Position numbers and translations under genes: made by a program. The notes beneath the pieces were generated by a model. It had not been told where the DNA came from, searched no databases, and saw nothing but the letters and a program-made list of their open reading frames with translations. Of a stretch of DNA of 64,000 bases, positions 3,869 through 29,865 are shown one piece after another. The first letter of the stretch is position 1. Every line of letters begins with the position of its first letter. The stretch comes from an uncultured Myxococcales bacterium. GTDB lineage: Bacteria > Myxococcota_A > UBA9042. The stretch spans positions 104,063 through 168,062 of the forward strand of contig CAJBNH010000072.1 of NCBI GenBank assembly GCA_903955385.1, given 5' to 3'.

Positions 3869-3909
3869 CGCCCCAGCTCGGGCCGTCCACGTTCCCGGAC
3901 CGGGTGGCC

Positions 3910-3939
3910 TTGCCGCTGCTGGCCAACGTGGGCTAACCT
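3910..3939 (+). promoter_or_regulatory. Putative sigma70-type promoter for the TPR envelope gene
   Basis: TTGCCG at 3910-3915 and TAACCT at 3934-3939 are 18 bases apart, 37 bases upstream of the ATG at 3977. The same TTGCCG-18-TAnnnT arrangement recurs before other genes here. Not a strong consensus match. Confidence 0.4.
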
Positions 3940-3976
3940 GCCCACCCGTCGACTCATCGTGCAGGGGGAGAGCTCC

Positions 3977-5104
3977 ATGGCCCACCGATGCTCACAGACT
4001 GAAATGCCTGCCTCCATCCGCCTCGTCGCCGTCCTGCTGGCGGGGATGCTGATCGGTCAGGTCAGCTCACCCGCGACCGCGCTTGCAGTTCCGGCGACAG
4101 ACAAGCCGACCGCTGTCCCCGCCCCCGCAACAGCGCCTGCCGCTGAGGTTGCGAAGCCAGAGCCCGCCAAGGCGGAACCCGCACCGACGGACCCGGATCT
4201 GGCGGCACCGGCTGCCGAACCCGCGGCCCCGGCGCCTGACAAGAAGGACGCCGCGAAGAAAGAGCCCGCGAAGAAGGAGGCAGGCAAGGCTGAGGCCGCC
4301 AAGCCCGCCAAGCCCGCCAAGGTCGTCGCCGTTAGCGCCAAGGCCAAAGCCGACGCCGAAGCATTGTCGAAGCAGGCCGGAGAGTACCTGCGCACCGGGA
4401 CCCACAGTCTGGCGGCCGACACGTACCTGAAGGCCTACTCGATGAACCCGCTGCCTGAGTATCTCTACGGTGCTGCTCGCGCGGAGCACCTCGCCGGCCA
4501 ACTGGAGTCCGCGATCGCGACGTACGCGCAGGCGTTGGCCGCCCTGACGCCCAAGCTGCCCCTGTACAAGAAGGTCAAGGCGGCGATGGACATGGCCAAG
4601 GAAGAGCTGGCTGCCCGTCCGGCACCGACCGTGGTCGAGGTTCAGGTCGAGGCTCCGGAGCCCGAGAACGCCAAGCCGGTGCCGATTCCTCAGGATCCGA
4701 CCCCGGTTGTCGTTCAGGCACCGCCGCCGCCCGCACCGTTTGCTTGGGAGAAACCCGTTGGCTACGGCGCACTTGGACTGGGGGCCGTGGCGCTGGTCTC
4801 GGGCATCGTCGTGTACGCGACCGCTTCGGCCGACCAATCAGCGCTGGACGATCTGTACGCCCAGAAGAGCGATCAGGGCATCACCGGCATCACCCGGGAG
4901 GATGCGATCGTGCGTCAGGACAGCATCAACAGCCGCGTCGTCACCACCTGGGCCCTGATCGGCACCGGCGTCGTGTCGGCTGGAGCCGGCGCCTATCTGC
5001 TGTGGTTCCACAAGCCTGCCGCGTCGACCAGCCCCGCCGCCCCCGCCGTTGTCGCCGTGCCTGTTCGCGACGGTGGCCTGCTGCAGCTGGCTTGGCGCTT
5101 CTGA
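3977..5104 (+). CDS. TPR-containing envelope protein with Ala/Pro/Lys linker and two C-terminal membrane segments
   Basis: Start ATG 3977 follows GGGGGAG at 3963-3969; GTG 3959 would place that site inside the gene. The product is 375 residues. A hydrophobic N-terminal segment (about residues 12-30) looks like a signal sequence or anchor. A low-complexity Ala/Pro/Lys/Glu linker follows (about 35-125), then a short TPR-like helical region containing [17 protein letters not shown] (about 135-210). A Pro/Val-rich spacer precedes two hydrophobic helices near 260-280 and 320-340 and a short tail. Such proteins are common in Myxococcota, usually as periplasmic scaffolds, but no specific function can be given. 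mreB follows on the same strand after 133 bases. Confidence 0.6.
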
Positions 5105-5140
5105 TCGCTTCTCGCGATTATCGGTAACTCTTGGGCCACC

Positions 5141-5170
5141 TTGCCGAACTGCGGAGTCTGCTGCTACCCT
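5141..5170 (+). promoter_or_regulatory. Putative promoter for mreB
   Basis: TTGGGC at 5141-5146 and TACCCT at 5165-5170, spacing 18, lie about 70 bases before the GTG start at 5238. The match is weak but is the best in this 133-base gap. Confidence 0.3.
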
Positions 5171-5237
5171 CGCCGACCGGCGCGCGGACCGTCGTGGGCA
5201 ACTGCGATCGCCACACCCGCGTCCTGGCGACGATCAC

Positions 5238-6269
<1,032 letters not shown>

Positions 6270-6303
6270 GCGAATTCATGTAAAGCACTGCGCCGAAACT
6301 GAC

Positions 6304-6747
6304 TTACGCGGGTGAGCGCGTCTCGAACAGCTCTGCGTGCTGGTGCAGGCGCTCGTCCATCGTCAGCAGGGGCGCGGGGACGACGGTCTGCAGTTTGTCC
6401 AAGCGACGGGCCAGCGCGCGAACCGCCAAGATGTGATCGCGAGGTGTGTCGGTGGTGCCGGTGCCCTGATTGGCCAGGAACAGGTCGAACTGGCGGCTGG
6501 CGGCGACCGGCGCGCGCGACCCACCGCGGCGGCACACCTCGACCACCAAGGATTCGTCATTCGTCAGGCTCTGCAGCGTGATCGGGACTGCACCCCGGCG
6601 CGGAGCACCGACGGAAGCCACGCGCCAGCCGTCCGCAGCCGAACGGCGCGCCTTCCGTGGGGCTGCGGATGCCGTCACACCGACAAGCGCGGCACCGGCA
6701 AGCGACATGCCTAGGAGGGCCAGGAACTCGCGTCGAGATACGGACAT
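6304..6747 (-). CDS. Small Tat-exported protein of unknown function
   Basis: ATG at 6747 is preceded by GAGGAG, giving a 147-residue product. The N-terminus has a textbook twin-arginine signal, S-R-R-E-F-L, followed by a hydrophobic stretch and an Ala-x-Ala cleavage site near residue 30. The mature part is about 115 residues with one Cys and a short domain (ITLQSLTNDESLVVEV...) that I do not recognise; an immunoglobulin-like or cupredoxin-size fold is possible. Tat export implies folding, perhaps with a cofactor, before transport. It is transcribed divergently from the methyltransferase next door and converges with mreB. Confidence 0.6.
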   Translation of the reverse strand: MSVSRREFLALLGMSLAGAALVGVTASAAPRKARRSAADGWRVASVGAPRRGAVPITLQSLTNDESLVVEVCRRGGSRAPVAASRQFDLFLANQGTGTTDTPRDHILAVRALARRLDKLQTVVPAPLLTMDERLHQHAELFETRSPA

Positions 6748-6785
6748 GGGCCACTCCTCGCAACGTTGAAACACCGGACAGAAGG

Positions 6786-6815
6786 AGTCTAGGGAGCAGC
6801 AAGCGGGGAAGTCAA
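6786..6815 (-). promoter_or_regulatory. Sigma70-type promoter for the Tat-exported protein
   Basis: On the minus strand TTGACT (6815-6810) and TAGACT (6791-6786) are separated by 18 bases, and the predicted transcript starts about 30 bases before the ATG at 6747. This is one of the best consensus matches in the window. Confidence 0.6.
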
Positions 6816-6869
6816 ACGCTTGCCGGAAGCGCGGTTCAGGCCGATCCTCCGGAGCCAGGAGAGCGACGG

Positions 6870-7805
6870 ATGACGCAACGGCCACAGCAGACCGCGGTTT
6901 CGAACCAGTTCGATCTGGTCGCCACTTCGCTTGCGCACGTTTGCGGTCGCCCACACCTGCACCTCAAGACACCCACCGGAACGCGTACTTACGCCCTGCC
7001 TCCGGGCGACACCGTGCCCGTAGAGCTGCCCAGCACCTTGGCCCGCGGCCAGCTCTATCTGGACGTGTCGTCCAAGGTCCGGTTGGACGATTTCGCAAGC
7101 GATCTGCGGCGGATCGAGCCGGTCGGCCCCCCCGTCCGCTGTCGGCCTTGGACGGCGTCCTGTCTGGGCATCTGGCGCAGCGTGGAACCATCCGGGTTTG
7201 CAGAGGAAGAGGCGCGGCTGCGGGCGGTGCTGTCCGGGCTGACGGGCGTGGTCGTCGACGTGGGCGCGGGCTGGCCGCAGTCGCTGGACGCGCTGGCGCC
7301 GGCACTGGCGGACCGCCGGGTTTGCTACCTGGCGTTGGATCCTCAGCTTCGGTTGGACGAGTGGCGTGATCGTGTACCGGCGGCGATCGTGCTGCGGGCC
7401 GCGGGCGAGCAGCTTCCGCTGCGCGACGAAAGCGCTGACACCGTACTGATGCTGAGGTCATTCAACCACTTGCGCGATCCGCTTCGGGCGCTTGGCGAGG
7501 CGGCGCGGGTGCTTCGTGAGGGCGGGCGGCTGGTGGTCGTCGACAACACCGCGTTCGGCCTGTTGAGGTCGCCCGGTCAACTGGTCCGCGCCCGCGCCGT
7601 CACCGTCGAAGCCACACCTTTCGAACACCTGCGCAACGCGGCGGCAAGCGATGCCGTCGCCTTGCTTCGTGCCGTGGCAGGGGCGCCGTTTGTCGTGGAG
7701 ACGGTGCGCGAGGTTGCACAAGGTACAGCAAACCAATGGCTGGTGATTGCGCGACGGGACCGGCTCGGGCCCAACGGAGTTGAAGTCTTGCGGGCGGCAC
7801 GGTAA
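6870..7805 (+). CDS. Class I SAM-dependent methyltransferase
   Basis: ATG 6870 is preceded by GGAG/AGGAGAG; the product is 311 residues. The Rossmann-type SAM-binding core starts near residue 128 with VVVDVGAGW (motif I), then an acidic residue after the second strand (LALDPQ). The motif IV region is DTVLMLRSFNHLRDP and the post-motif is EAARVLREGGRLVVVD, all as in the Methyltransf_11 group. The first 120 residues form an unassigned domain with a segment (RPWTASCLGIW) that might bind the substrate. The substrate cannot be inferred. It is divergent from the Tat protein and precedes the MopE-like gene by 131 bases. Confidence 0.75.
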   Translation: MTQRPQQTAVSNQFDLVATSLAHVCGRPHLHLKTPTGTRTYALPPGDTVPVELPSTLARGQLYLDVSSKVRLDDFASDLRRIEPVGPPVRCRPWTASCLGIWRSVEPSGFAEEEARLRAVLSGLTGVVVDVGAGWPQSLDALAPALADRRVCYLALDPQLRLDEWRDRVPAAIVLRAAGEQLPLRDESADTVLMLRSFNHLRDPLRALGEAARVLREGGRLVVVDNTAFGLLRSPGQLVRARAVTVEATPFEHLRNAAASDAVALLRAVAGAPFVVETVREVAQGTANQWLVIARRDRLGPNGVEVLRAAR

Positions 7806-7818
7806 CCTGTGCTATTCT
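7788..7818 (+). promoter_or_regulatory. Putative promoter for the MopE-like lipoprotein
   Basis: TTGCGG at 7788-7793 and TATTCT at 7813-7818 have a 19-base spacer, one or two longer than ideal. The GTG start is at 7937. Confidence 0.3.
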
Positions 7819-7936
7819 GGGAGTTGGCGCGTCAGTTCTCGTTCTTCGGCGCGTGCGGCTTCCCGATCGATCGACCGCAGAATCCCTGCGAGCCACCGGG
7901 CTTCGCAGGACGCCCGTTGCATCGGGGGGAGCTACG

Positions 7937-13786
<5,850 letters not shown>

Positions 13787-14796: not shown

Positions 14797-16575
14797 CTAG
14801 GGCCCGCAGAGCACCGCTTGCCGCTCCGCCGACGGACCGGTCACGAACACCTGACCCACCGCGTCGAGCACATCATCCTCCGTGCTGACGCTGAGTTGTC
14901 CACCAGCCAGCAGCGCACCCGTCGGCAGGGGCGCGGCCGCCATGCCAAAGCTGGGTTGACCCAAGCTGCCGGTGGTAACGGTCAGCACGACGGTGGCGGC
15001 GGTCACGTCCACCGACGGTTCGATGAGGGTGAACGTGTCGAGGATGCACTCGCCGACGGTCGAGCAAACGTCCGGGACGTCCATCGGCGCGACCAAACCG
15101 CCCGCGAACAGGATGTGACCGCTGGGTAGCCGGATGGCGACCGTGCCCAGACCTGCCCGCAAGACCGAGCCACCCAGATCGACCGGCTTGATTTCGGCCG
15201 ACTTGGAGGCGCGGCTGACGACGACGACGTAGGTGGGGGCATTCTCGCTGCGGATCGGCTGGGCGTACGGCAGGCCACCGGCGACAAGGAATGCGAGGGT
15301 ATCTGCAGAGCTGGCGAGGACCACGGCGACCGGACCGATGGTGGCCAAGTTGGCATCCGTCAGGATCGCTGCGTCTCCCGTGATCGTCAGGGCCTTGCCG
15401 GTCGTGCCGGCGGGCTCCAGCACCTCGCCCAAGTCGGCGACGGCCTTCGACGCGTTACCGCCCCAGACCACGACCGTGCCGTCGGGGAACTTGAGCAGCG
15501 CCGGGCGCGCGCGCGCGGCCGCGAGGGTCACGCCCACGCTCTGCACGGCGATGCCCGCAGCCACGTCGGTCAGGTTGGGCAGTCGGCTCGCTTGCGCCAG
15601 CGGCGCCCCCGCATCGTCGACGCCGCCTGCGAACAGGATCTCCGACCCCAGATGAATCGACGAACTGAGCGGTCGCGCGCCGACGCCGATGTCCGCCGTC
15701 GATTGCGTGGACTGGCCCGCATCGCTCAACTCGACCACCTCCGCAGCAAACGGCGGCAGCGCTTCGTCAACCTTGCCGGGAGCCATGAGCGGCGAGGGCA
15801 GCGCCGTAGAGCCGAACAGCTTGACCGAGGTCACGCCGCCAGCCACGAGCACGCGGCGGATCGTGGGGTCGGCGGTCAGCGGTGGCAGGGCATGGACGTG
15901 TGGCTGGATGCGGCCAACGAGCAAGCTGGGAGCCGGGCGGAACGCGCCCAAGCGATAGTCGTAGACGTCGACGTCGCTCGACGCGGTGCCGCTCTTGTCG
16001 GCAGAGGACCACTCCTTGATCCCGCCCGCGACGACGGCCTGACCGTCGAACAACGCCGCAGCTCCGGCCAGGCTGCGAGCGCCCTTCAGCGTCGCGGAGC
16101 CGCCGGGTCCGCCGGTGCACGCCAGCTGCGCAACGGGAGCCAGAAAGACGCGCGCCACGGTCTCGGCCTGGTCAACGACGGCGACGTCATTGGTCCGCCC
16201 CGAGTAGACGACCTTGTGGGACGCGTCGCAGCCGAACAGCTCGAGGTCGATGTCCTGGCCAATGGGAAGGCCGGTCAGCAGCCACGAGCCCTTGCCTTGC
16301 ACGGTGCTCTTGGACACCTTGAATGTCTCTTGGGTCTGGTCTGGTCGGGTCAGCACGGCGGCAAGGGTCGTCACGGTCGCGGGGACCACCCCTTGGCCGT
16401 TGGTGGTGGCAGCACAGCCTTGTGACGTCAGGCTGGCGAACCACAGCTCCAAGCCGCTGTTGGCCACCGCGGCCGGCTCGGACTCCGCACAGCCGACAAG
16501 CAGCATCGCGGCGGTCAGGCACGCGGCCGGAAACAGGTGACGCGCGAGGACGTTCGACTTGGCTTGGCCGTTCAT
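14797..16575 (-). CDS. Kelch-type beta-propeller lipoprotein
   Basis: ATG 16575 is preceded by GGGAGG; the product is 592 residues. The signal peptide ends LLVGC (lipid Cys29). At least six segments carry a hydrophobic strand followed by Gly-Gly (RVLVAGG, EILFAGG, TVVVWGG, AFLVAGG, HILFAGG, ALLAGG), the hallmark of kelch/galactose-oxidase blades. A lipid-anchored beta-propeller facing the periplasm or the surface is the reasonable reading. Propellers of this sort bind sugars or proteins; no catalytic residues are evident. It is divergent from rseP and upstream of lipA. Confidence 0.75.
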   Translation of the reverse strand: MNGQAKSNVLARHLFPAACLTAAMLLVGCAESEPAAVANSGLELWFASLTSQGCAATTNGQGVVPATVTTLAAVLTRPDQTQETFKVSKSTVQGKGSWLLTGLPIGQDIDLELFGCDASHKVVYSGRTNDVAVVDQAETVARVFLAPVAQLACTGGPGGSATLKGARSLAGAAALFDGQAVVAGGIKEWSSADKSGTASSDVDVYDYRLGAFRPAPSLLVGRIQPHVHALPPLTADPTIRRVLVAGGVTSVKLFGSTALPSPLMAPGKVDEALPPFAAEVVELSDAGQSTQSTADIGVGARPLSSSIHLGSEILFAGGVDDAGAPLAQASRLPNLTDVAAGIAVQSVGVTLAAARARPALLKFPDGTVVVWGGNASKAVADLGEVLEPAGTTGKALTITGDAAILTDANLATIGPVAVVLASSADTLAFLVAGGLPYAQPIRSENAPTYVVVVSRASKSAEIKPVDLGGSVLRAGLGTVAIRLPSGHILFAGGLVAPMDVPDVCSTVGECILDTFTLIEPSVDVTAATVVLTVTTGSLGQPSFGMAAAPLPTGALLAGGQLSVSTEDDVLDAVGQVFVTGPSAERQAVLCGP

Positions 16576-16584
16576 GTGCCTCCC

Positions 16585-16626
16585 GTGCAGGTCAGGTGGA
16601 ATCCAGTGCAGGTCAGGTGGAATCCA
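16585..16626. repeat. Perfect 21-base tandem duplication
   Basis: Positions 16585-16605 and 16606-16626 are identical; each contains GGTCAGGTGG. The repeat lies 10 bases upstream of the kelch lipoprotein start codon, inside its untranslated leader, and overlaps its upstream ribosome-binding region. Slippage could vary its copy number. Confidence 0.9.
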
Positions 16627-19743: not shown

Positions 19744-20034
19744 TTGATCGGTCGGGACCCGCGAGTTCGTTACGCACTGCACCCGCAGCTGGCGCACCGC
19801 GCTGTCGGACCCGAAGTGTTTCTGGTCACGGATGACCGTGCATTTCATCGGCTCTCGTCGACCACAGCGGTGGAATTGTTCGAGAAGCTGAAGCAAGGGG
19901 AGTGCCGCCGCGATGAGTTCGTGGCGACGCTAACCGAACGGTACGAAGTCTCGCCCGAGCGGGCCGCTGAGGATGTCGACGCCTTCCTGCAATCGCTGTT
20001 GGAACGCCTCGTCATCGTCAGCTTGGCCGATTAG
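19744..20034 (+). CDS. PqqD-family peptide-recognition protein (RRE)
   Basis: TTG 19744 has a strong GGAGG at 19733-19737 with a 6-base gap and gives 96 residues, the usual PqqD size; the upstream open frame is unlikely to be translated. The product has the PqqD/RRE layout: an N-terminal strand pair (RVRYALHPQ, EVFLVTDD), a segment equivalent to the family's 'hrLnetaa.lwel..g' (FHRLSSTTAVELFEKLKQG), then helices ending in LLERLVIVS. PqqD proteins bind the leader of a ribosomal peptide and present it to a radical SAM enzyme. It opens the run of same-strand genes leading to the precursor-like peptide, kinase, radical SAM/SPASM and peptidase genes, and is separated from the giant lipoprotein by 37 bases. 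Confidence 0.78.
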   Translation: MIGRDPRVRYALHPQLAHRAVGPEVFLVTDDRAFHRLSSTTAVELFEKLKQGECRRDEFVATLTERYEVSPERAAEDVDAFLQSLLERLVIVSLAD

Positions 20035-20071
20035 AGCAGTGGCTCCGCTACGGGATTTGGGAGGAAGGCAA

Positions 20072-23000
20072 ATGGCTATCGCTCGTGGGCTCCGACCCGT
20101 CCTGATGATCGCAGCTGTCGTCACCTTTGCGGTGGGCTGCTCAGACCAGAGAGTATCGGGCCCCCCGACGTGGGACGGCTGCACGGGGGACGCTTGCCTC
20201 CCCGGCGACGTTACCGACACCGACCTCCCCGGCGACGTTACCGACACCGACCTCGCTGGCGACGCTACCGACACGACGCCTGCGCCGACGATCGCCTTGT
20301 CGATCGAGACCGGCAAGGGCATGGCGCTTGAGGGTTCGGTCTCGACCGTCGTCCTGACGTTCGAGGACGACAAGTACCCGGGCCTCGATGCCATCGGTGT
20401 GCAGGTCGACGTCATCGCCACGACCACCAACGTTCCCGACGGCACCATGGTCGAGCTTTTGGTCGACGGCAAGAAGAGCGGCCTGTCCGCGCCCGTCGCA
20501 TCCAATGAAGCGCGCTTCCTCAAGCTGGACGTGCCGTGTCAGGACGCGCTGAGCGTCGGCGTGCGCGTCACCGTCGGCGAAGTCGCTGCCGAAGAGGCCA
20601 AGAGCATCGGTCTGGTCTGCGCGAACGGCTGCAAGGCCGCGCTGCAGCTCGAGCCGGGCTGCCTGACGGTCGACGGCGACCCGGTCACGCCCGGATTCCA
20701 GGCTTCTTTCGTCGTCACGACCGAGACGCCCGACTGCACCCACGCCTACATCGGGTACCTCGACGCGGACGGCAACGTGGGCCAGTCGGCCAAGGTCGCG
20801 TTGTTTCAAGGGCAGTCGGCGCCGATTCAAGTCACGCTGGCTGCCGAAGCTACGGGGCTGGTCGCGCAGACCGTCGAGCTTGTCGCGAACGTGATCGATG
20901 AATCCCAGCCGCAACGACCCGCCGGTCAGTCCGCCAAGGCGACGCTGACCCTGACGACCGAGGCTCCGGTCATCGACATCAGCCAGCCCACGCCCGGCCA
21001 GTTGACCCTTGCGGACGACACGAATCCCGCGCAGCCCGGCATTCAGGCCGATCTTGTCGGTACGGCCACCACGATGACGCCTTTTGACGCCAACGCGATC
21101 GCCCTCTCGATCGATGGCACCCAGGTCGCGGCCGCCACGCTTCAGATCGACGGCGCGTTCACGTTCCCGCTTTCGTTTGACACCACCAAGACTTACAGCG
21201 TTTCCATCACCGCGACCAATGGTTGCGGGCTGAAGTCCACCAAGGACGTCGCCTACACCGTGTTCACCGGCCAGTCGGCGATCGTCATTCAGGACCCCGC
21301 TCCGGGCCAGACCCTCCTGGCGAAGAATGACCAGGACCTGGCGACGCCATCGCTGTACGACACCTCGGTTGTCGTCGGCCTCCAGAAGGGCGCAGCGAAC
21401 AGCAAGATCTCCGTGTTTTGCCGAAAGTTCGGCGAGGGCTTCCCTTACGGCAACGACCCGGTCGGCTCTTTGGTCTACACGGACACGCAAGCCAGCACAG
21501 TCACCATTCCCGTCTCCCTCGACTTCGACCTTATGGGCAGCCAGGTCACTTGTCTGGCCAAGGATGACGCGCCGAATCCGTCTGCCTCGCCAGAGGTTTC
21601 GTTCGTCCTCGCCTTGCCGCCCCCTTGCCTGACCGTCCTGTCGCCGGCCGGAGCGAGCATCGCCACCAAGCCCCAGATCGACATCGCCGCGTCGACCGAG
21701 AACCTCGACGGCGCTGTCGTGTCGGCCACGCTCGCCGCTCAGGATGGCAGCGCGACCTACGGGCCGTTCCCGCTCGGCACGGCCAAGGCCGGCTTGCTTG
21801 TCTCCCCGCTGTCGCTGATCGTCGGCAATCCGCCGCAGACGCTGCCGGACGGGATCTACGTTCTGCAGCTCAACGCGACCGACGAGTTTGGCAACGTCGC
21901 GACCGATTCTGCGTGCAGCGACACGAGTCGCGTCGTGCAGGTCGACACGCAAGGTCCCACGATCGCGATTCTCGAGCCGTCCAAGGCGGTTCTCAACGTA
22001 GCGACCGATGCCGACAGCGCACCCGCGGTGCCGGGTTTCCAGGTCGACGTCAAGGTCGGTGTCGGTGACGCCATCGATGTGTGCCTCGAGGCCAACGGCA
22101 TCGCCATCGGGTGCCAGGACGTCGCCCCCGGCCAGACCGAGGTCACCTTCCTCGGCGTAACCCTGCAGCCCGGCCAGAACACCCTGCGCCCGACCGGTGC
22201 GGATAGCTCTGGCAACCCCAGCTTGCCGAACGACATGGTGGTCACGCTGCTGTCGGACCTGCCCAACGTCGTGTTCATCCTGCCCACGCAGCCCGCGTTC
22301 ACCGCGTTCGACGAGATGACGTTCGTCGCCAAGGTGACGACCGGCGTTGAGGCCGTTCCGGTCACCGGCGCGCAAACCGAAGTGTGGGTCAACGGCGCCT
22401 TGGCTCAGGTCTCGGTGCAGGAGACCGCTCCGGGCGAGTACAGGTTCAAGGTCACGGGTCTGGCGGCTGGCGACACCACCGTCCAGTTCGGCGCGGCCGT
22501 CAGTTCCGCCCCAGCCAAGAAGGGTTACACGGCGCCGTTGGTCGTCACGCGAAAGACCGACCAGCCCGGCATCGCCTTTGTGTTCCCCGCCACCGGCCAG
22601 TTGTTCAACCTGAACAGCGTCGCGTGCACTCCCTTCTTGCCGAACTGCCTGATGTCCACCGATCTGGCGTTGACGAACGTCGAGGATGGCCGCGACGTCA
22701 AGGTGACGGTCACCTGCGCCGGCAAGGCGAAGGACTATTTCGGCAAGTCCAAGGCCAACGCAGCCAAGGTCGCCAGCATCTCGCTGACGGACCGCACGAC
22801 CTGCATCCTTGACGCGACGGTGACCGATGCGGCTGGCCAGAAGGCGCAGGCCCAGCCGGTGACGGTCACGGTCGACCGCACGGCACCGGTGTTTCTGGCT
22901 CTGGCATCACCTGTGAAGGTCGGCGACTCAGCGACCTTGTTGCTGGCCATGGATGACTTGCTGCCGGACGTTGAAGGGATGCAGATTGACCTTCAGATCA

Positions 23001-26000
23001 AGGCCGCTGGCCTGCCGAAGGATGCGCCGGTCGTTGTGGACGTGTTCAAGGACGATGGGACCAAGTACGCCTCGTATCCCGCGACGGCCGTTCCCAGCAT
23101 TTCTGACGACCAAGTGGGGGTGGTCGCGTTCGGCATCTTGACGCTGCCTGACGGCTACAAGGTCAAGCTTGTCTTCTCAGGCTCCGACACTGCCGGCAAT
23201 CCGGCGACGAAGACGTTTGTGATGCAGGTCCTGAGCGCCGGCGCGGAGATCCGCGTGACCTTGCCCTCGCCCCTCGCTGCGGCGACGTGCACGGTCAAGG
23301 CGGACTGTGGCGCCAACGCCGTCTGCGTGAACGGAACTTGTGCAGTGGCGTGGAACAAGCTCACCGCGAAGTCGATTGGTGTGTTCACCTTCGGCTTGCC
23401 CAATGGCTCGGCCCTGCGCATTTGCAGCAACTCGCCCGGCGTGACGGGCGAGGCGTGCGCGACCGCCGGCTACAAGGTCATCGCGACGGGCAAGATCGAA
23501 GCCTCGACGGCCATCGTGAATCTCAGTTCGCTGCCCGACGGACTGTATCACGTCATCGCAGAGGGCAGCTTCCTGCCTACCGTTCCCTGGACGCCGTCAC
23601 TCGTGGCGACGCTGCCTGCCGGACGGGACCGGACGATCTTGATCGACACGGTCGCGCCGTCCATCGAGCTGCTGGCGCCCCCTACCGACGCGGCAGTCCC
23701 CGCACTGTGCCTGTCCAACGCCTTGCAGAGCGCACCCGATTTGGGACTGGCCGGCGGCAAGTTCACCTTCCAGGTCACCACCACGGGTGAAGCATCGGTC
23801 ACGGTGCTGGCCGGCTCGGTCAAGGGCACCGCCGACACGGTCGGAGGAAAGGCCTCCGTCGTCGTTACGGTCCCTGCCGAAGGCGAGATTGCGATCTCGG
23901 CAGCGGCGGTCGATGCGGTCGGCAACGTCGGCGAGATGAAGACCCTTCCCAACATGATGGTGAACACCATCAGTCCGAATGGCGCGTTTGCGTGGCCGTC
24001 GAAGGCCAAGGTGCTGGTCGGCGACCCGCTCGACGTCTTGGTGACCAGCAGTGCCAACGACGTAGAGGGTCAGGACGTGACCATTCGCGACGGCGGTGTC
24101 TTCAAGGCGACCGAGAAGTTTGTCGGTAGCCAGGCCCAGTTCCCGGACGCCAAGGATGCCCTGCTCGTCCAAGGCCAACGCGAACTGCAAGCGGACCTGC
24201 GCGACGTCTGCGGCAATATCTCGACCATCGCCACCAGTCCGGCAAAGATCACGGTCGATACTGAACCGCCGCAGCTCGGCATTCAGACCCCGACCCCGGG
24301 AGCGACGTTCACCGACAATGACGACGCCGCGCCCGCCGTTTCCGGCTATCAGGTCTCCGTCCTGTTTGGCACGGTCGACACCGACTCGTGGACGCTTGAA
24401 TTGGGCGACGACTGCGATTCCAGCTTCCTCAACTGCGCCGGTTACGAGAAGGTCGGCAGCGGCAAGGCACTGAATCCGAATGGCGTCGAGCCCAAGGTGG
24501 ATGTCACGATCCCATTTGGCGCCACGACGCACTACGTGCTGCGCTTGACCGGCGTGGACATCAACGGCAACAAGACGGTGGCCACTCGAGGCTTCGACGT
24601 TCAACTCAGCGGCTGCCTTGTGTTGGTCAAGGGGCTGCCGATCGGCGGCCTGAACACGCAGGCGTGCCCGACTCCTGGACAGAACTGTGCCAGCGTGACC
24701 CCGACCGTGACCGCGGAGTTTGTCGGTCCGTGCGGCAACCCTGACAAGATCGAACTGCGCAAGAATGGCAGCGCGGTTGCGTCGGCCGCTCCGGTGAACG
24801 CCAAGGCGTCCTTTGCCTTGGAGGTCAAGGATGGTGATTCGTTCTCGGCCGAGGTCGTCGCGCTGGAAGGTGCGGCGGTCAAGGGTTCCAGCGGTGCGGT
24901 GACCGTCAAGGCCGACCTGACCAATCCCACGGTGTCGTTCATCGCGGGCCAAGTGCTCGGCTTCGACACGCCGGCGGGACCGACCGCGCTGTATGGTCAG
25001 CCTGACGACCAGTCGGTTGCTGCGCCCAACCACCAGGTGCATCTGCTGATTGAGGCCAAGGATGCCGGCTTGGCCGGTGGGCAGCTGCTCGAGCTCAAGC
25101 GCAAGGTGGGCATCAGCACCGGTGATCTGCCGCAGGCACTGGTGAAGCTGCCGCTCACGCTCGACGCTGCGGCCGATCAAGTCCAGGTTCAGTTCGCAAC
25201 GCTTACCGAGGATGCCAGCAACACGATCACGGCGAAGGTTGCGGATGCCTTGGGCAATACGGCCGTCGCCACGGTCACCATCAAGGTCGACTGGAAGGCC
25301 CCGGCCAAGGTCGTTCTGGACCCGTTCGCTAGCGGCGACCTGAACCCGCGGCGTCCGCTCGCTCGCGTTTCTTTCACCGCTGTCGGCGACGACGGGATGA
25401 CGGGGACGGCAGCCGCCTACGATGTGCGGTACTCGCGCAAAGCCATCACCACCATTGCCGAGTTCGAAGCTGCTTGCGAGGCCAAGGCCATTTCTGGCGT
25501 GCAGCTGCCCGTTCCGGCTGAGGCGGGCGTCACGCAGCAAGTCGAGATCTCTGGCCCGGACCCGCGCTCTGCCAGCGACCTCTGCAAGTTCGCCTCGCTG
25601 ACCGACGGAGGGATCTCCAAGTATTACTTCTCGATTCGCGCGGTGGATGCTGCGGGCAATCACTCGGACGTCTCGACGGCCCTTTCGACCGACGCGCTGC
25701 GTCTGCACTACGTCAAGGTCACGACGGCAGACCCGAAGTACCAGACCGCTGAGTATCGCAACCGCGTGTATGCGGCAGGCGACCTGAACGGTGACGGTCT
25801 GTCCGACTTTGTCGTGGGCGGCGGCATCGACCTCGACGCCTGCGTTGTCTACGGCCGACCCTCAGCGGCCGACGGTTCACTCGCTGACGTGACGTTCGAC
25901 AGCCAAGTTGGTACGCATCACGTCTGCCTGCCGGGTACGGGGCTCGGCCTTGCCGGCAACACGGCGCTGCAGCCGGGAGACGTCAACGGTGACGGCATCG

Positions 26001-27196
26001 ACGACTTGGTCATTGGAGCTGGTCAGGGTGCCGGGTTCACACGCGAGGTGCGCGTGTACTTGGGCCGTGACAAGCAGCTGATCTCGGCTCAACCGCAAGT
26101 CATCTTCAAGGGCATCGCATCTGTGCCGGCTTGGGGTGTCCGCGCAGTGACCACGATTCGCAGCTTCAACGGAGACTTGCACCCCGTTACAGGCCTGCCG
26201 ACCGCTGAGATCGTCGTCACATCAGCACCGTACGGAAGCGTGCTGTATGACCGGGTGTTCGTGATCCCGGGCAACGCTGCTTGGACCGCGGACAAGCAGG
26301 TCATCATCGACGGCAACGTCCCGGCCGACCGCGCCGCTAACAACATCATGACGATCCACCTGGCAGATAGCGTCGGCAACGTGCTGTTTGGCTACTCATT
26401 GGTAGGACTCAGCAACGTGCTCCCGGACAACGGCGGCCTGGGCCCGCAGTTTGACGACCTCGCCATCTCGCAGTACGCCACGCCTCAGCAGGTTCACATC
26501 GTGCCCGGCCGGACGTTCAGCGGCGACGTCGAAGTGCTGCTGACGCGCGACCAACTCGGCACCGCGCCCGACGACGCGTCCACGGTTCGGGTTCTGTGCG
26601 ACTCCAATGTGGGCATCAACGCGTGCGGCACGGTGATGGACGCGGTCAACGTCGATGGCGACGCCCTCAGCGACTTGGTCGTCCGCCATCAGGTCTCCGG
26701 GACCGTCGGTGCGATCTACTGGATCAGCGGGTCAAAGCTTGCCTCCTACGTGGGAAAGCGCGTTTCCATGGCGCTGACGCCGGTTGCCAACGCCCCGGCG
26801 CTTGGCACCCATCCTCTGGGCGGAGCCGTGCGGGCGTGGGTTCAGGGCCTGTCCTCGCTAGGCACGTTTGGTGACCATCCCGACGGATTGACCGATATCG
26901 TGAACGGGTCGCCGGCCTACGGACCCACCAACACGGCGCTGTTGACCGTCCGGTATGGCATGCCGGTCCCCGCGCTTCAGGGAGCCGGCGGCTACGCATT
27001 TGACGACATCGTCTTCGGCAACCCGTTTGCTCCGGGCTCGCTGGGCTGGGGAGTCGGCACGAAGGCCATGGTCAGCACCTCCGTCGTCGGCATCGGCGAC
27101 TTCAACGGCGACGGTCGTCCTGACATGCTCGTGGGTTCGGCCGACACCACGGTGGGCAGCGTCACGACGCCAGGTGTCTTGGTTCTGGTGTACTGA
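20072..27196 (+). CDS. Giant lipoprotein with Ig-like repeats and C-terminal FG-GAP propeller
   Basis: ATG 20072 follows GGGAGGAAGG; 2374 residues. The signal peptide ends FAVGC (lipid Cys23). A short acidic linker, GDVTDTDLP repeated three times, is followed by about 1850 residues of beta-rich Ig-like units. Several units open with a motif of the type P-x-P-G-x-x...D-D-x-x-P-A-x-P-G-x-Q, and a small Cys-rich patch (CTVKADCGANAVC) lies near residue 1075. From about residue 1900 to the end are FG-GAP/integrin-like blades: DLNGDGLSDFVVG, DVNGDGIDDLVIG, NVDGDALSDLVV and DFNGDGRPDMLVG, which bind Ca2+ in known examples. A long surface adhesin or scaffold is likely. Its position between a PqqD-like gene and the precursor-like peptide is unusual. 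Confidence 0.82.
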   Translation: MAIARGLRPVLMIAAVVTFAVGCSDQRVSGPPTWDGCTGDACLPGDVTDTDLPGDVTDTDLAGDATDTTPAPTIALSIETGKGMALEGSVSTVVLTFEDDKYPGLDAIGVQVDVIATTTNVPDGTMVELLVDGKKSGLSAPVASNEARFLKLDVPCQDALSVGVRVTVGEVAAEEAKSIGLVCANGCKAALQLEPGCLTVDGDPVTPGFQASFVVTTETPDCTHAYIGYLDADGNVGQSAKVALFQGQSAPIQVTLAAEATGLVAQTVELVANVIDESQPQRPAGQSAKATLTLTTEAPVIDISQPTPGQLTLADDTNPAQPGIQADLVGTATTMTPFDANAIALSIDGTQVAAATLQIDGAFTFPLSFDTTKTYSVSITATNGCGLKSTKDVAYTVFTGQSAIVIQDPAPGQTLLAKNDQDLATPSLYDTSVVVGLQKGAANSKISVFCRKFGEGFPYGNDPVGSLVYTDTQASTVTIPVSLDFDLMGSQVTCLAKDDAPNPSASPEVSFVLALPPPCLTVLSPAGASIATKPQIDIAASTENLDGAVVSATLAAQDGSATYGPFPLGTAKAGLLVSPLSLIVGNPPQTLPDGIYVLQLNATDEFGNVATDSACSDTSRVVQVDTQGPTIAILEPSKAVLNVATDADSAPAVPGFQVDVKVGVGDAIDVCLEANGIAIGCQDVAPGQTEVTFLGVTLQPGQNTLRPTGADSSGNPSLPNDMVVTLLSDLPNVVFILPTQPAFTAFDEMTFVAKVTTGVEAVPVTGAQTEVWVNGALAQVSVQETAPGEYRFKVTGLAAGDTTVQFGAAVSSAPAKKGYTAPLVVTRKTDQPGIAFVFPATGQLFNLNSVACTPFLPNCLMSTDLALTNVEDGRDVKVTVTCAGKAKDYFGKSKANAAKVASISLTDRTTCILDATVTDAAGQKAQAQPVTVTVDRTAPVFLALASPVKVGDSATLLLAMDDLLPDVEGMQIDLQIKAAGLPKDAPVVVDVFKDDGTKYASYPATAVPSISDDQVGVVAFGILTLPDGYKVKLVFSGSDTAGNPATKTFVMQVLSAGAEIRVTLPSPLAAATCTVKADCGANAVCVNGTCAVAWNKLTAKSIGVFTFGLPNGSALRICSNSPGVTGEACATAGYKVIATGKIEASTAIVNLSSLPDGLYHVIAEGSFLPTVPWTPSLVATLPAGRDRTILIDTVAPSIELLAPPTDAAVPALCLSNALQSAPDLGLAGGKFTFQVTTTGEASVTVLAGSVKGTADTVGGKASVVVTVPAEGEIAISAAAVDAVGNVGEMKTLPNMMVNTISPNGAFAWPSKAKVLVGDPLDVLVTSSANDVEGQDVTIRDGGVFKATEKFVGSQAQFPDAKDALLVQGQRELQADLRDVCGNISTIATSPAKITVDTEPPQLGIQTPTPGATFTDNDDAAPAVSGYQVSVLFGTVDTDSWTLELGDDCDSSFLNCAGYEKVGSGKALNPNGVEPKVDVTIPFGATTHYVLRLTGVDINGNKTVATRGFDVQLSGCLVLVKGLPIGGLNTQACPTPGQNCASVTPTVTAEFVGPCGNPDKIELRKNGSAVASAAPVNAKASFALEVKDGDSFSAEVVALEGAAVKGSSGAVTVKADLTNPTVSFIAGQVLGFDTPAGPTALYGQPDDQSVAAPNHQVHLLIEAKDAGLAGGQLLELKRKVGISTGDLPQALVKLPLTLDAAADQVQVQFATLTEDASNTITAKVADALGNTAVATVTIKVDWKAPAKVVLDPFASGDLNPRRPLARVSFTAVGDDGMTGTAAAYDVRYSRKAITTIAEFEAACEAKAISGVQLPVPAEAGVTQQVEISGPDPRSASDLCKFASLTDGGISKYYFSIRAVDAAGNHSDVSTALSTDALRLHYVKVTTADPKYQTAEYRNRVYAAGDLNGDGLSDFVVGGGIDLDACVVYGRPSAADGSLADVTFDSQVGTHHVCLPGTGLGLAGNTALQPGDVNGDGIDDLVIGAGQGAGFTREVRVYLGRDKQLISAQPQVIFKGIASVPAWGVRAVTTIRSFNGDLHPVTGLPTAEIVVTSAPYGSVLYDRVFVIPGNAAWTADKQVIIDGNVPADRAANNIMTIHLADSVGNVLFGYSLVGLSNVLPDNGGLGPQFDDLAISQYATPQQVHIVPGRTFSGDVEVLLTRDQLGTAPDDASTVRVLCDSNVGINACGTVMDAVNVDGDALSDLVVRHQVSGTVGAIYWISGSKLASYVGKRVSMALTPVANAPALGTHPLGGAVRAWVQGLSSLGTFGDHPDGLTDIVNGSPAYGPTNTALLTVRYGMPVPALQGAGGYAFDDIVFGNPFAPGSLGWGVGTKAMVSTSVVGIGDFNGDGRPDMLVGSADTTVGSVTTPGVLVLVY
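20198..20278 (+). repeat. 27-base tandem repeat in the post-lipobox linker
   Basis: 20198-20224 and 20225-20251 are identical; 20252-20278 is a diverged third copy. Each encodes nine residues of the Gly-Asp-Val-Thr-Asp-Thr-Asp type just after the lipidated Cys. Recent slippage is suggested by the perfect identity of the first two copies. Confidence 0.85.
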
Positions 27197-27209
27197 GCCC
27201 GACGGATGC

Positions 27210-27237
27210 TTGTGCCGGATCGGTCTTCGGATACACT
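27210..27237 (+). promoter_or_regulatory. Possible internal promoter for the precursor-kinase-rSAM-peptidase genes
   Basis: TTGTGC at 27210-27215 and TACACT at 27232-27237 with a 16-base spacer lie in the 69-base gap after the giant lipoprotein, 28 bases before the precursor start. It would let the small peptide be made without the 7-kb gene upstream. Confidence 0.35.
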
Positions 27238-27265
27238 GTGGGCCCACAAGGTGGAAGGAGTAGCG

Positions 27266-27427
27266 ATGGAGAACGAACGCGAATTGAATACAGGTGAGGC
27301 GGAGAAGAACGCCCTCATGCCCTATGTTGCGCCCGCGATCGAGACTCTGGGGGAATCCTTGTCAGCACTGCTTTCCAGCGCGGTTGTGTGCAAGGACCCT
27401 GAAGGTGTTCCTCCCGACCTGACATGA
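27266..27427 (+). CDS. Putative RiPP precursor peptide (53 residues)
   Basis: ATG 27266 is preceded by GGAAGGAG with ideal spacing. The 53-residue product has no signal peptide. Its leader-like half is charged (residues 1-15) and contains Y20-V-A-P23-A-I-E-T-L28-G29. This is the YxxPxxxxLG pattern that leader peptides of lasso and other PqqD/RRE-dependent pathways use for binding. The C-terminal part (30-53) is Ser/Ala/Leu-rich, has a single Cys42, then a Pro/Asp-rich end finishing DLT. The stop codon overlaps the kinase start (ATGA). Size, motif and overlap with three modification-type genes make a modified peptide likely. The product chemistry is unknown; one Cys would permit at most one thioether. 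Confidence 0.7.
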   Translation: MENERELNTGEAEKNALMPYVAPAIETLGESLSALLSSAVVCKDPEGVPPDLT

Positions 27428-28266
27428 CGTTTCCGACTCGGCGCAGTGGCGGACCTTCGATGGACTGCCCGACGGCTGCCTTTGGCCCCTTCCGGGTAGC
27501 CGTCATTTTTCCGCCGGGCCGCGATTCCGGCCGAACCAGCTGGTTGGACCCCCCCGGCGTTCCTGCCGACATCAAGCTGAACGCCACACTCGACGGCACT
27601 CCCCGCAGCGACGCCGGACTTCGCTTCACCCGGTTCGACGACGACGGCTTTGCCTTCCTTTCGGCGCACGCCTTGGTCCAGGTCGATTGGCGGACAGGGA
27701 CCGGCACCGCCACCCTTGCGACCGACGACGACGACCCGCGCAGTCGACCCACGGCCACGATGGAGGCGATGTTTGGAGTCGCCTACGCGAAAGTCTTGCG
27801 CGCCGGAGGGGTGGTCCTGCACGCCGCCACGCTGGCCTACGAGGGTCGGGTGTGGGTGGTGGCAGGGTACAGCGGCGCAGGAAAGACCACACTCTCCGGA
27901 CGGTTTCCCGACCAAGCCCTTCACGACGAGCACGCCTTTCTGGTGCCTGGAGACGACGGCTGGGTCGTGTGGCGCCACGTGGAGCTGCGGCGGCCCCGCG
28001 CCATCGCGCCTTGGGTGGTGCCGGTCGGGGGGCTGAGCATCCTCTCGTCCAACCGTTCCGTGACGGGCTTGCGCCCCGTCGTTCAAGCAGAGCAGTTCGC
28101 CTCTCTGGTCCCGCACGCCGTTTTTGCCGGCGGCGCGACCCGGAATCTGATGCTGGAACACCTGTTGAACCTGACGCAAGATTGTCCGCCGGCTTGGCTT
28201 GACCATTGTCTGAAAGACTCGCCAGAGGTCGTTGCGTCCACCGTTCAGGGTCTCTCCGATGGCTGA
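27424..28266 (+). CDS. HPr-kinase-like (HprK-related) ATP-binding protein
   Basis: The ATG overlaps the precursor stop by four bases; 280 residues. The C-terminal half has the HprK-type P-loop V-x-A-G-Y-S-G-A-G-K-T-T (Lys154), preceded by the typical VVLHAATL strand and followed by LHDEHAFL, which matches the acidic pair after the P-loop in HprK. The HPr-recognition domain of true HprK/P is absent; the first 110 residues are a different, unassigned domain. Related proteins occur in peptide-modification loci: the lasso-peptide kinase of paeninodin-type clusters, SynChlorMet cassette protein ScmC, and the HprK-related kinase A and B families. It may phosphorylate the precursor or only bind ATP; this is inference. 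Confidence 0.75.
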   Translation: MTFPTRRSGGPSMDCPTAAFGPFRVAVIFPPGRDSGRTSWLDPPGVPADIKLNATLDGTPRSDAGLRFTRFDDDGFAFLSAHALVQVDWRTGTGTATLATDDDDPRSRPTATMEAMFGVAYAKVLRAGGVVLHAATLAYEGRVWVVAGYSGAGKTTLSGRFPDQALHDEHAFLVPGDDGWVVWRHVELRRPRAIAPWVVPVGGLSILSSNRSVTGLRPVVQAEQFASLVPHAVFAGGATRNLMLEHLLNLTQDCPPAWLDHCLKDSPEVVASTVQGLSDG

Positions 28267-29458
28267 TCTGCTCGACGACACAGGGGGCGCGGACCAAGCG
28301 TTGGTGAGGGCCTATCGGCGTGCCGACATGCCGCTGCACGCCCACTTGGACGTCACGTATCGTTGCGACCTCGACTGCGTGCACTGCTATCTGGACGACA
28401 AGCACTGGCCCGAGATGACGCCTGACGAGCTTCGGGACCTGCTGCATCAGCTTCGCGATGCCGGAGTCCTGATCCTCACTTGGAGCGGCGGGGAGTTGTT
28501 TCTCCGTCCGGATGTGGATGAGGCCTTGGCGCTCGCGGCCAGTCTCGGGTTTGTCAATCGGATCAAGACGCACGCGGGCAACCTGACGCAGGAGCGGGTG
28601 GCTCTGCTGGCCCGCTCTCGCGTGTCGCGTGTCGACGTCAGCGTCTACTCGCTGCGGCCGGAGATTCACGACGCCTTTGTGCGACGCCCGGGGGCGCTGC
28701 TGCGAACGCTGGACGGAATCAGTCTGCTGCGTCAGGCCGGACTGCCGGTGCGCGTCTCCATGACCGTGCAGGCGAACACCTTGGACGAGATGGAGGAACT
28801 GTACGCGCGGTTCGCCGCGGACGGGTGTGAGGTGACGCTCAACGGAACGATCCGTCGCGACCATTCGGCCACAAGCACCCTGGACGCACTTCAGTTGAGC
28901 GAGGCGGACCTCGTGAGGGTGAGGACGTCGATGAGGCAGTTGCTCGGCCTCACCGGGCTGCAGTCTCCACCGCGGATGCAGGACCTTGAGGACCAAACCA
29001 CCTGTGGGGCGGGGCGGACGGCTGCCTACATCGCTCCGGACGGCAGCGTGTGGCCCTGCGTGACCTGGCCCATGGCGCTGGGCAACGTGCGCGAGCAGAC
29101 GTTCGGCGACATCTGGCGCAACTCGCCGCTCCGTCGCGAGATCCTCGCGTGGACGAACAAGGACCGTACCGGTTGTCTCTCCTGCGTCGGCAATTCCGTA
29201 TGCTTCTATTGCCCCGGTGAAGCCTTCAAGCGCAGTGGGGACTTCCGCAAGGCCCCGGACTCCTTTCACGCTGAGACGCGCGCCCGACTTTTGGCTTTCG
29301 AAGCGACCGGAAGCCCCCCGTTCACCGCAGAAGAATGGGCAACCGTTCCCGACGGCGGCGCGGACGGCCGCCCCCCCGACCACTTCGTCTTTCCCATCCA
29401 CCGCGCACAGCGAGGCGGCGGGCGTCGCGTCAAGGAACCGTCGGGAGGGTCGAAGTGA
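28259..29458 (+). CDS. Radical SAM/SPASM-domain peptide-modifying enzyme
   Basis: ATG 28259 overlaps the kinase gene by eight bases; 399 residues. The radical SAM cluster motif is C36-D-L-D-C40-V-H-C43, followed by the glycine-rich SAM-binding strand WSGGEL near residue 78. The C-terminal SPASM region has Cys249, Cys267 (VWPC) and a tight set C306-x2-C309-x5-C315-x2-C318, enough for auxiliary Fe-S clusters. SPASM radical SAM enzymes of this layout (PqqE, AlbA, MftC and relatives) crosslink or cleave ribosomal peptides bound through an RRE. With the adjacent small peptide and PqqD-like protein, a RiPP maturase is the best reading. The last 50 residues are an Arg/Gly/Pro-rich tail. The peptidase gene overlaps its stop. 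Confidence 0.88.
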   Translation: MADLLDDTGGADQALVRAYRRADMPLHAHLDVTYRCDLDCVHCYLDDKHWPEMTPDELRDLLHQLRDAGVLILTWSGGELFLRPDVDEALALAASLGFVNRIKTHAGNLTQERVALLARSRVSRVDVSVYSLRPEIHDAFVRRPGALLRTLDGISLLRQAGLPVRVSMTVQANTLDEMEELYARFAADGCEVTLNGTIRRDHSATSTLDALQLSEADLVRVRTSMRQLLGLTGLQSPPRMQDLEDQTTCGAGRTAAYIAPDGSVWPCVTWPMALGNVREQTFGDIWRNSPLRREILAWTNKDRTGCLSCVGNSVCFYCPGEAFKRSGDFRKAPDSFHAETRARLLAFEATGSPPFTAEEWATVPDGGADGRPPDHFVFPIHRAQRGGGRRVKEPSGGSK

Positions 29459-29865
29459 CCCGCGTCGACTGGTACACCCTGTCGGGACGGTCGATGTGGC
29501 CGCTGGCCGCGCCGTGGCAGGCGGGGGTTGTGCGCGTGCCGTTTGAGGACCTGCGGCGCGGGGACCTCGTGGCCACGCTGGGGGTTCGGCCGGGCGAGGT
29601 GTGGATCCATCGGGTCGCGTCGCTAGGGCAGGACGAGCTTCAGACCCGAGGCGACACGCGTGCGACGGCCGACACGCCGATCGCCGCTTCGGCCGTGCTG
29701 GGGCGAGTCGCGCAATTGCGCTTGGGCGCCGTCACGTTGCCGGTGCCCGCGTCAGGACTCTCCGGGGCTGCGGTGCGATCGGCCGGTCTGGCATGGGCCC
29801 GCGTCGCACCCGCGCTCAGAGTCGGCTGGGGGCGATTGCGACGCGGCGTGTCGCGGAATTCTTGA
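29455..29865 (+). CDS. S24/S26-type (signal-peptidase-like) peptidase, soluble
   Basis: GTG 29455 overlaps the radical SAM stop by four bases; 136 residues. The start of the catalytic domain is immediate: L-S-G-R-S13-M-W-P, the GxSMxP box with nucleophile Ser13. Then comes W-I-H52-R-V and later TRGD67, matching the 'HRv...TkGD' boxes of SipW/ER-type signal peptidases, which use Ser-His in place of the Ser-Lys of type I leader peptidase. There is no N-terminal membrane anchor. The natural role in this operon is removal of the precursor's leader; this is inferred from position. About 55 C-terminal residues are Arg/Ala-rich and unassigned. Confidence 0.78.
   Translation: MTRVDWYTLSGRSMWPLAAPWQAGVVRVPFEDLRRGDLVATLGVRPGEVWIHRVASLGQDELQTRGDTRATADTPIAASAVLGRVAQLRLGAVTLPVPASGLSGAAVRSAGLAWARVAPALRVGWGRLRRGVSRNS

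Follow-up and report, generated by a model that had tools for sequence, protein, structure and literature searches.

A predicted LPP-like, radical SAM-modified peptide cassette paired with a giant surface lipoprotein in an uncultured Myxococcales bacterium

The LPP (linear polyphosphorylated peptide) family of ribosomal peptides is encoded by lppAKBSDN gene clusters, which specify a precursor, an HprK-like kinase, an RRE, a SipW-like leader peptidase, an exporter and an NTP transferase (Popov et al. 2026, PMC13381572). The precursors share the motif YxxPxVLxHQxIxFET|xxS, in which the Tyr is followed 18 residues later by the phosphorylated Ser. LppB binds YxxP, LppK phosphorylates core Ser3 and did not accept Thr, and cleavage two residues upstream of the phosphorylated Ser is carried out by LppS (S29/H68/D93) (PMC13381572). 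LPP was described as restricted to Bacillota, and in Bacilli both LPP and paeninodin clusters are mobile and conflict-like (PMC13381572).

The window analysed here is a stretch of 64,000 nucleotides from an uncultured Myxococcales bacterium, in which a cassette of six genes on one strand had been predicted. All six were found on the forward strand in the predicted order and positions, and they encode a discrete PqqD-family RRE, a giant secreted lipoprotein, a precursor peptide, an HprK-like kinase, a radical SAM/SPASM enzyme (rSAM) and an S26 signal-peptidase-like serine protease. The PqqD and giant genes are separated by 37 nt and the giant and precursor genes by 69 nt; from the precursor to the peptidase the starts chosen reproduce the predicted overlaps of 4, 8 and 4 bases. 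Neither a strong terminator nor a sigma-70 promoter was found inside the six-gene unit. Gene content, order, co-occurrence and motifs are established here at the level of sequence, and from these the cassette is called a putative LPP-like, radical-SAM-modified RiPP system paired with a surface protein.

The PqqD-giant-precursor-HprK-like-rSAM/SPASM-S26 arrangement is carried by 21 of the 22 genomes of the window's family, and in the 22nd the contig breaks inside the giant gene. A single-sequence search detected the kinase in 20 of the 21 other genomes of this family, in 5 of 30 other genomes of the class and in none of the 38 genomes searched from other classes. In 20 family genomes, kinase, rSAM and S26 genes follow in the same order with the giant upstream of them; PqqD lies upstream of the giant in 19 of these 20, the exception being a contig that ends inside the giant. 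Nearly all family genomes with the flanks present have the cassette between tsaB and ybgF. Many of them also keep the position of a lipoprotein-like gene upstream of rseP (14797-16599 of the window, reverse strand).

Using profile searches, the giant was found in 43 of the 52 class genomes, as a single copy each time, the kinase in 41/52 and the rSAM (E < 1e-60) in 39/52. Wherever contigs continue, the giant never occurs without the cassette and rSAM/SPASM is present with every giant; giants with no kinase or rSAM match on their contig (G018, G031, G034, G038, G042) all lie at the end of a contig or close to it. Only 3 further giants, in two other families, came from a search of 379 genomes of the phylum; two of these giants (L084 and L085) have the cassette neighbourhood, and the third contig ends. 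The association of precursor, rSAM, kinase and giant holds throughout the class and in two distant genomes outside it but within the phylum. In L084, 1.9 kb separate kinase and rSAM; an exporter was considered for this stretch and rejected, as it reads as genes on the opposite strand, judged by eye to encode a glycosyltransferase and a MiaE-like protein.

Further contigs were searched with the rSAM alignment as seed. The named records of the relatives are MAGs labelled uncultured Myxococcales or Deltaproteobacteria, and several of the names refer to lakes or groundwater. A public MAG titled Klebsiella pneumoniae (L104, CAMDBH010000004.1) has the cassette, with an rSAM identity of 56%, and its label is almost certainly wrong. 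Another MAG, titled Acidobacteriia (L127), has a related HprK-PqqD-rSAM-NTP_transf_5 cassette without the giant, near which no YxxP precursor ORF was recognised. Genus g14 of family f5 (L097, L051) has a two-rSAM version, with a second radical SAM-like domain upstream of the giant, preceding PqqD in L097; here PF14907 follows the rSAM gene, and S26 was not detected beside it.

Tree distances among giant, rSAM, kinase and PqqD correlate at 0.63-0.84, in agreement with vertical inheritance; these values fit both co-evolution and shared species history and do not separate the two. Conservation in 40+ genomes confirms that the order and content of the cassette are not due to chance. The cassette is single-copy, vertically inherited and mostly at one syntenic site, and it is far more conserved than expected.

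The predicted small precursor is encoded by a 53 aa ORF (27266-27427, +) which starts with ATG after the Shine-Dalgarno sequence GGAAGGAG, contains the leader YVAPAIETLGESLSAL and has Cys42 in place. A precursor ORF lies between giant and kinase in 41/41 readable class loci, and in 43 loci when the outgroups are included. The scored motif, aromatic-xxP-x-hydrophobic-x-[STEV] followed by a later Cys, was present in 41 of 43 giant-to-kinase intervals, where shuffled sequences would give 3.2 and the opposite strand gave 1; the two intervals missing it (L050 and L085) have variant motifs. An alignment of 45 precursors anchored on the leader Tyr as position 1 gave the leader consensus [KR]-x-Y-x-x-P-x-[VIL]-x-[ST], with Pro4 in 44, a hydrophobic residue at position 6 in all 45, Ser/Thr8 in 42 and Leu17 in 37. 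The Tyr is replaced by Trp in 6/45 and by Phe in 1/45. Ser/Thr occurs at position 19 in 32/45 precursors and at 19 or 20 in 43/45, and by analogy with LPP the phospho-acceptor of the window precursor is predicted to be Ser38. Cys never occurs in positions 1-17, and 1-4 Cys come afterwards. The tails are variable and extend for 11-25 residues beyond position 16; Gly, Pro, Cys, Ser, Ala and Asp abound in them, and Lys, Arg, His and Trp are almost absent. They are alike only among relatives, as in KDPEGVPPDLT (window) and QDPSGSPPDLT (L042). An NCBIfam search assigned the precursors to no family, and no further precursor copy was present in the window genome. The LLxSGC segment was examined as a lipobox, which was ruled out as there is no hydrophobic signal region. 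The original prediction of a modified ribosomal peptide could be judged by comparing precursor and rSAM across genomes, as it had proposed: wherever rSAM and PqqD are retained, so is the precursor, whose leader is conserved and whose tail varies and bears Cys. Comparative genomics thus argues strongly for a ribosomally made peptide of the RiPP kind.

The first gene (19744-20034, +; TTG start after GGAGG) encodes a 96 aa protein that matches Pfam PqqD (E 1.8e-10, 41.5 bits against a cut-off of 23.4), a candidate leader-binding chaperone whose position is conserved in 20+ genomes. Its profile gave as best PDB matches TbiB1 (3e-4), TfuB1 (5e-4), PbaB1 (9x90, 6e-4) and LppB (9x8z, 0.014), and is closest to RREs of the lasso/LPP type. 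The rSAM (28259-29458, +; ATG start) matches Radical_SAM (8e-21) and SPASM (1.8e-12), and has the CxxxCxxC motif (C37, C41, C44) and six invariant downstream Cys (C250, C268, C307, C310, C316, C319). The best PDB matches of its profile were SkfB (6e-38), PqqE (5e-30) and 5v1q, annotated 'Radical SAM' (4e-23). It has no RRE of its own, which is consistent with a discrete PqqD protein.

The kinase (27424-28266, +; ATG start) scored below cut-off with the NCBIfam models ScmC (5e-6) and HprK_rel_B (2.5e-4). It has the P-loop GYSGAGKTTL, a catalytic His and the acidic pair LHDE, with H133, G153, K154 and T156 invariant, and its AlphaFold model (pLDDT 91.7) gave ATP-dependent PEPCK as the best Foldseek match (3.5e-7) and HprK/P as a weaker one (0.03), so that motifs and predicted fold point to the HprK/PEPCK type of kinase. 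The last gene (29455-29865, +; GTG start) encodes a 136 aa protein that fell below the cut-offs in the sequence searches. In an alignment of the ORF starting at 29335, Ser53, His92 and Asp107 are invariant and Asp113 is conserved in >=90% of sequences; its profile matches SPase I/SEC11 at 0.005-0.015. The protein is a signal-peptidase-like protease of the archaeal/ER (Ser/His/Asp) type, and as no transmembrane peak was detected, it is most likely cytosolic.

These features bring the cassette close to LPP, with which it shares a discrete RRE, the YxxPx[VIL] leader, an HprK-like kinase and a leader protease resembling archaeal-type signal peptidases. The precursors have Ser/Thr at the offset of the LPP phospho-Ser or one residue later, and in the window's S26 protein Ser and His are 39 residues apart, as are S29 and H68 in LppS. 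A relationship to LPP explains the presence of the HprK-like and S26 genes. LPP peptides are defined as linear phosphopeptides with no further primary modification enzyme, whereas the cassette has a universal SPASM rSAM and its tails carry Cys. Furthermore, an MsbA-like exporter, present in LPP clusters, does not occur among the six genes, the FET cleavage motif is not conserved, the giant lipoprotein is obligate, and the cassette is class-wide and syntenic where LPP is patchy and limited to Bacillota. What is new with respect to LPP is thus the SkfB/PqqE-like rSAM, the lack of an exporter, the vertical fixation and the inseparable, disulfide-rich Ig/FG-GAP lipoprotein. It had been stated that no named class matches this locus; this holds for the exact combination, for which the literature searched contained no paper, but LPP is a near relative (PMC13381572).

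PF14907, the NTP transferase that counts as the fourth core enzyme of LPP, was found in 43/52 class genomes, adjoining the cassette in family f5 and unlinked elsewhere. It accompanies the cassette in 41 of 45 genomes against 2 of 7 (Fisher p 0.0009, in related genomes that are not independent). The unlinked copy neighbours a Glycos_transf_4 gene in three families. In the window genome PF14907 (G000:C166:3541-4257, L143) adjoins Glycos_transf_4 and heparinase II/III-like genes, recalling LPP clusters embedded in capsule loci.

Two other affiliations did not hold. SynChlorMet (ScmA-F) also combines a ScmC-like kinase and PqqD-like genes with a SPASM rSAM, but the cassette lies far below the cut-offs for ScmC, ScmD and ScmE (13.8, 26.1 and 75.4 bits against 100, 125 and 400; TIGR04248/04249/04250), and nearly all cassette genomes have one rSAM rather than two. 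Paeninodin-type lasso clusters share the PqqD/B1-type RRE, the HprK-like kinase and a [Y/W]xxP leader, but the cassette encodes neither the B2 transglutaminase-like peptidase nor the asparagine-synthetase-like C cyclase. Sactipeptide and ranthipeptide systems (SkfB, AlbA) resemble it in the SPASM-type rSAM, closest to SkfB, and in Cys in the core; they differ in having the RRE fused rather than discrete, the kinase and S26 protease are features of the cassette, and the thioether is here a prediction.

The giant (20072-27196, +; ATG start) has 2,374 aa and matches Pfam FG-GAP (9e-12) and Big_13 (6e-9). It has the lipobox ..VTFAVGC, which is kept in practically all homologs, a stack of Ig-like domains and FG-GAP repeats near the C end. 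In 25 aligned genomes it is collinear over ~2,350 residues, with 37 near-invariant Cys including that of the lipobox. The invariance of length and Cys pattern speaks for a specific structure and against a variable adhesin. Residues 1390-2374 (C-terminal 985) were modelled by AlphaFold as beta-rich (pLDDT 89.5), and a PDB fold search with these residues returned generic Ig/FN3/A2M-type matches only, without a functional hint. In L090 (family f8) the giant is split in two adjacent ORFs (2181-8348 and 8352-9248).

The giant, described in the original prediction as lying in the middle of the cassette, proved to be no bystander but its most tightly linked member. Two genomes (G046 and G051) lack it but retain kinase, PqqD, rSAM, precursor and S26, so the peptide genes can be maintained in its absence. 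These loci (L138, G046:C71; L139, G051:C105) have the order HprK-PqqD-rSAM-precursor-S26, followed by a Peptidase_C25 gene whose product is secreted and has a C-terminal membrane tail. Their precursors read WETPR[VI].. AYQCSSGPAPVSGS.TEGCPP, with two almost identical tails. Just downstream, the other strand carries a second rSAM gene. Both versions of the cassette have a large exported protein alongside.

Taken together, the cassette probably produces a short ribosomal peptide that undergoes modification in the cytosol and acts together with the surface lipoprotein. Thioether formation, phosphorylation and cleavage are transferred from homologs, and leader binding, kinase site and cleavage follow the LPP model. 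The PqqD-like RRE would bind the YxxPx[VIL] leader and present the precursor to the SPASM rSAM, which would modify the Cys-bearing tail, a thioether-type Cys crosslink being the most likely outcome. The conserved Ser/Thr, which follows the leader Tyr by 18-19 residues, would be phosphorylated by the HprK/PEPCK-fold kinase, and the soluble S26 protease would cut about 2 residues before this Ser, giving a product of ~11-25 residues. The giant may be the dedicated surface partner of the product, as receptor, anchor or scaffold, a functional partnership suggested by the obligate linkage. Some observations count against this explanation. Thr in some precursors fits poorly with the kinase analogy, given that LppK refuses Thr; Trp or Phe replaces Tyr in 7/45 precursors; and S26 matches known structures only weakly in sequence. 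Apart from the lipobox Cys, the Cys of the giant are even in number, which would leave no spare thiol for a covalent link. Finally, there is no exporter among the six genes, and a C39 exporter was rejected, as C39 exporters are absent from carrier genomes; the route of the peptide to the surface is therefore not accounted for. In a more specific and tentative form of the explanation, somewhat doubtful as it stands, the rSAM-modified phosphopeptide would be an obligate ligand or subunit of the 2,350-residue surface lipoprotein, RiPP maturation serving the assembly of a class-fixed surface machine and not a secreted product.

The product could instead be an ordinary secreted RiPP, a signal or antimicrobial, with the giant as receptor, self-protection or mere neighbour. 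Peptides of this kind usually combine a fixed leader with a variable tail, and the mobile, conflict-like clusters of Bacilli would set a precedent; but this reading is unlikely, considering that the cassette is single-copy, vertical and mostly at one site, that neither a cassette exporter nor C39 exporters occur in the carriers and that the giant is never separated from the cassette where contigs continue.

Less probable still is an assembly like that of quinohemoprotein amine dehydrogenase, in which the rSAM-crosslinked peptide would be a structural or cofactor-bearing subunit of the giant. In that system (QhpC/QhpD) a small rSAM-modified, Cys/Asp-rich peptide works inside a larger extracytoplasmic protein, and the invariant, collinear giant and its obligate linkage would fit such a pairing. 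However, the tails share no catalytic residue beyond Cys, and neither heme CxxCH nor quinone, subtilisin or in-cis exporter partners were recognised, the large protein being an FG-GAP/Ig giant instead. That the rSAM modifies the giant itself, with the small ORF as a regulatory or chaperone peptide, is very improbable: some rSAM/SPASM enzymes do modify large proteins (anSME), and giant and rSAM co-occur wherever contigs continue, but the small ORF has a Cys tail and a YxxP motif that by analogy would bind the RRE, cytosolic modification would compete with export directed by the Sec lipobox, and rSAM and precursor are still found together where the giant is missing.

RiPP clusters tend to be mobile and patchily distributed. 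In the present case, a RiPP cassette belongs to the core genome throughout a class of mostly uncultured Myxococcota-type bacteria and is tied to one giant with an invariant disulfide pattern, which suggests that the peptide is an integral component of the cell surface and not a dispensable antibiotic. The LPP-like logic of RRE, HprK-like kinase and signal-peptidase-like leader protease would thereby extend to another phylum, with radical SAM chemistry added. The precursor, its leader and the predicted phosphorylation and cleavage sites are defined well enough for direct testing. Should the peptide act on the giant or within it, the cassette would offer a rare example of a modified peptide that forms a constant element of the bacterial surface.
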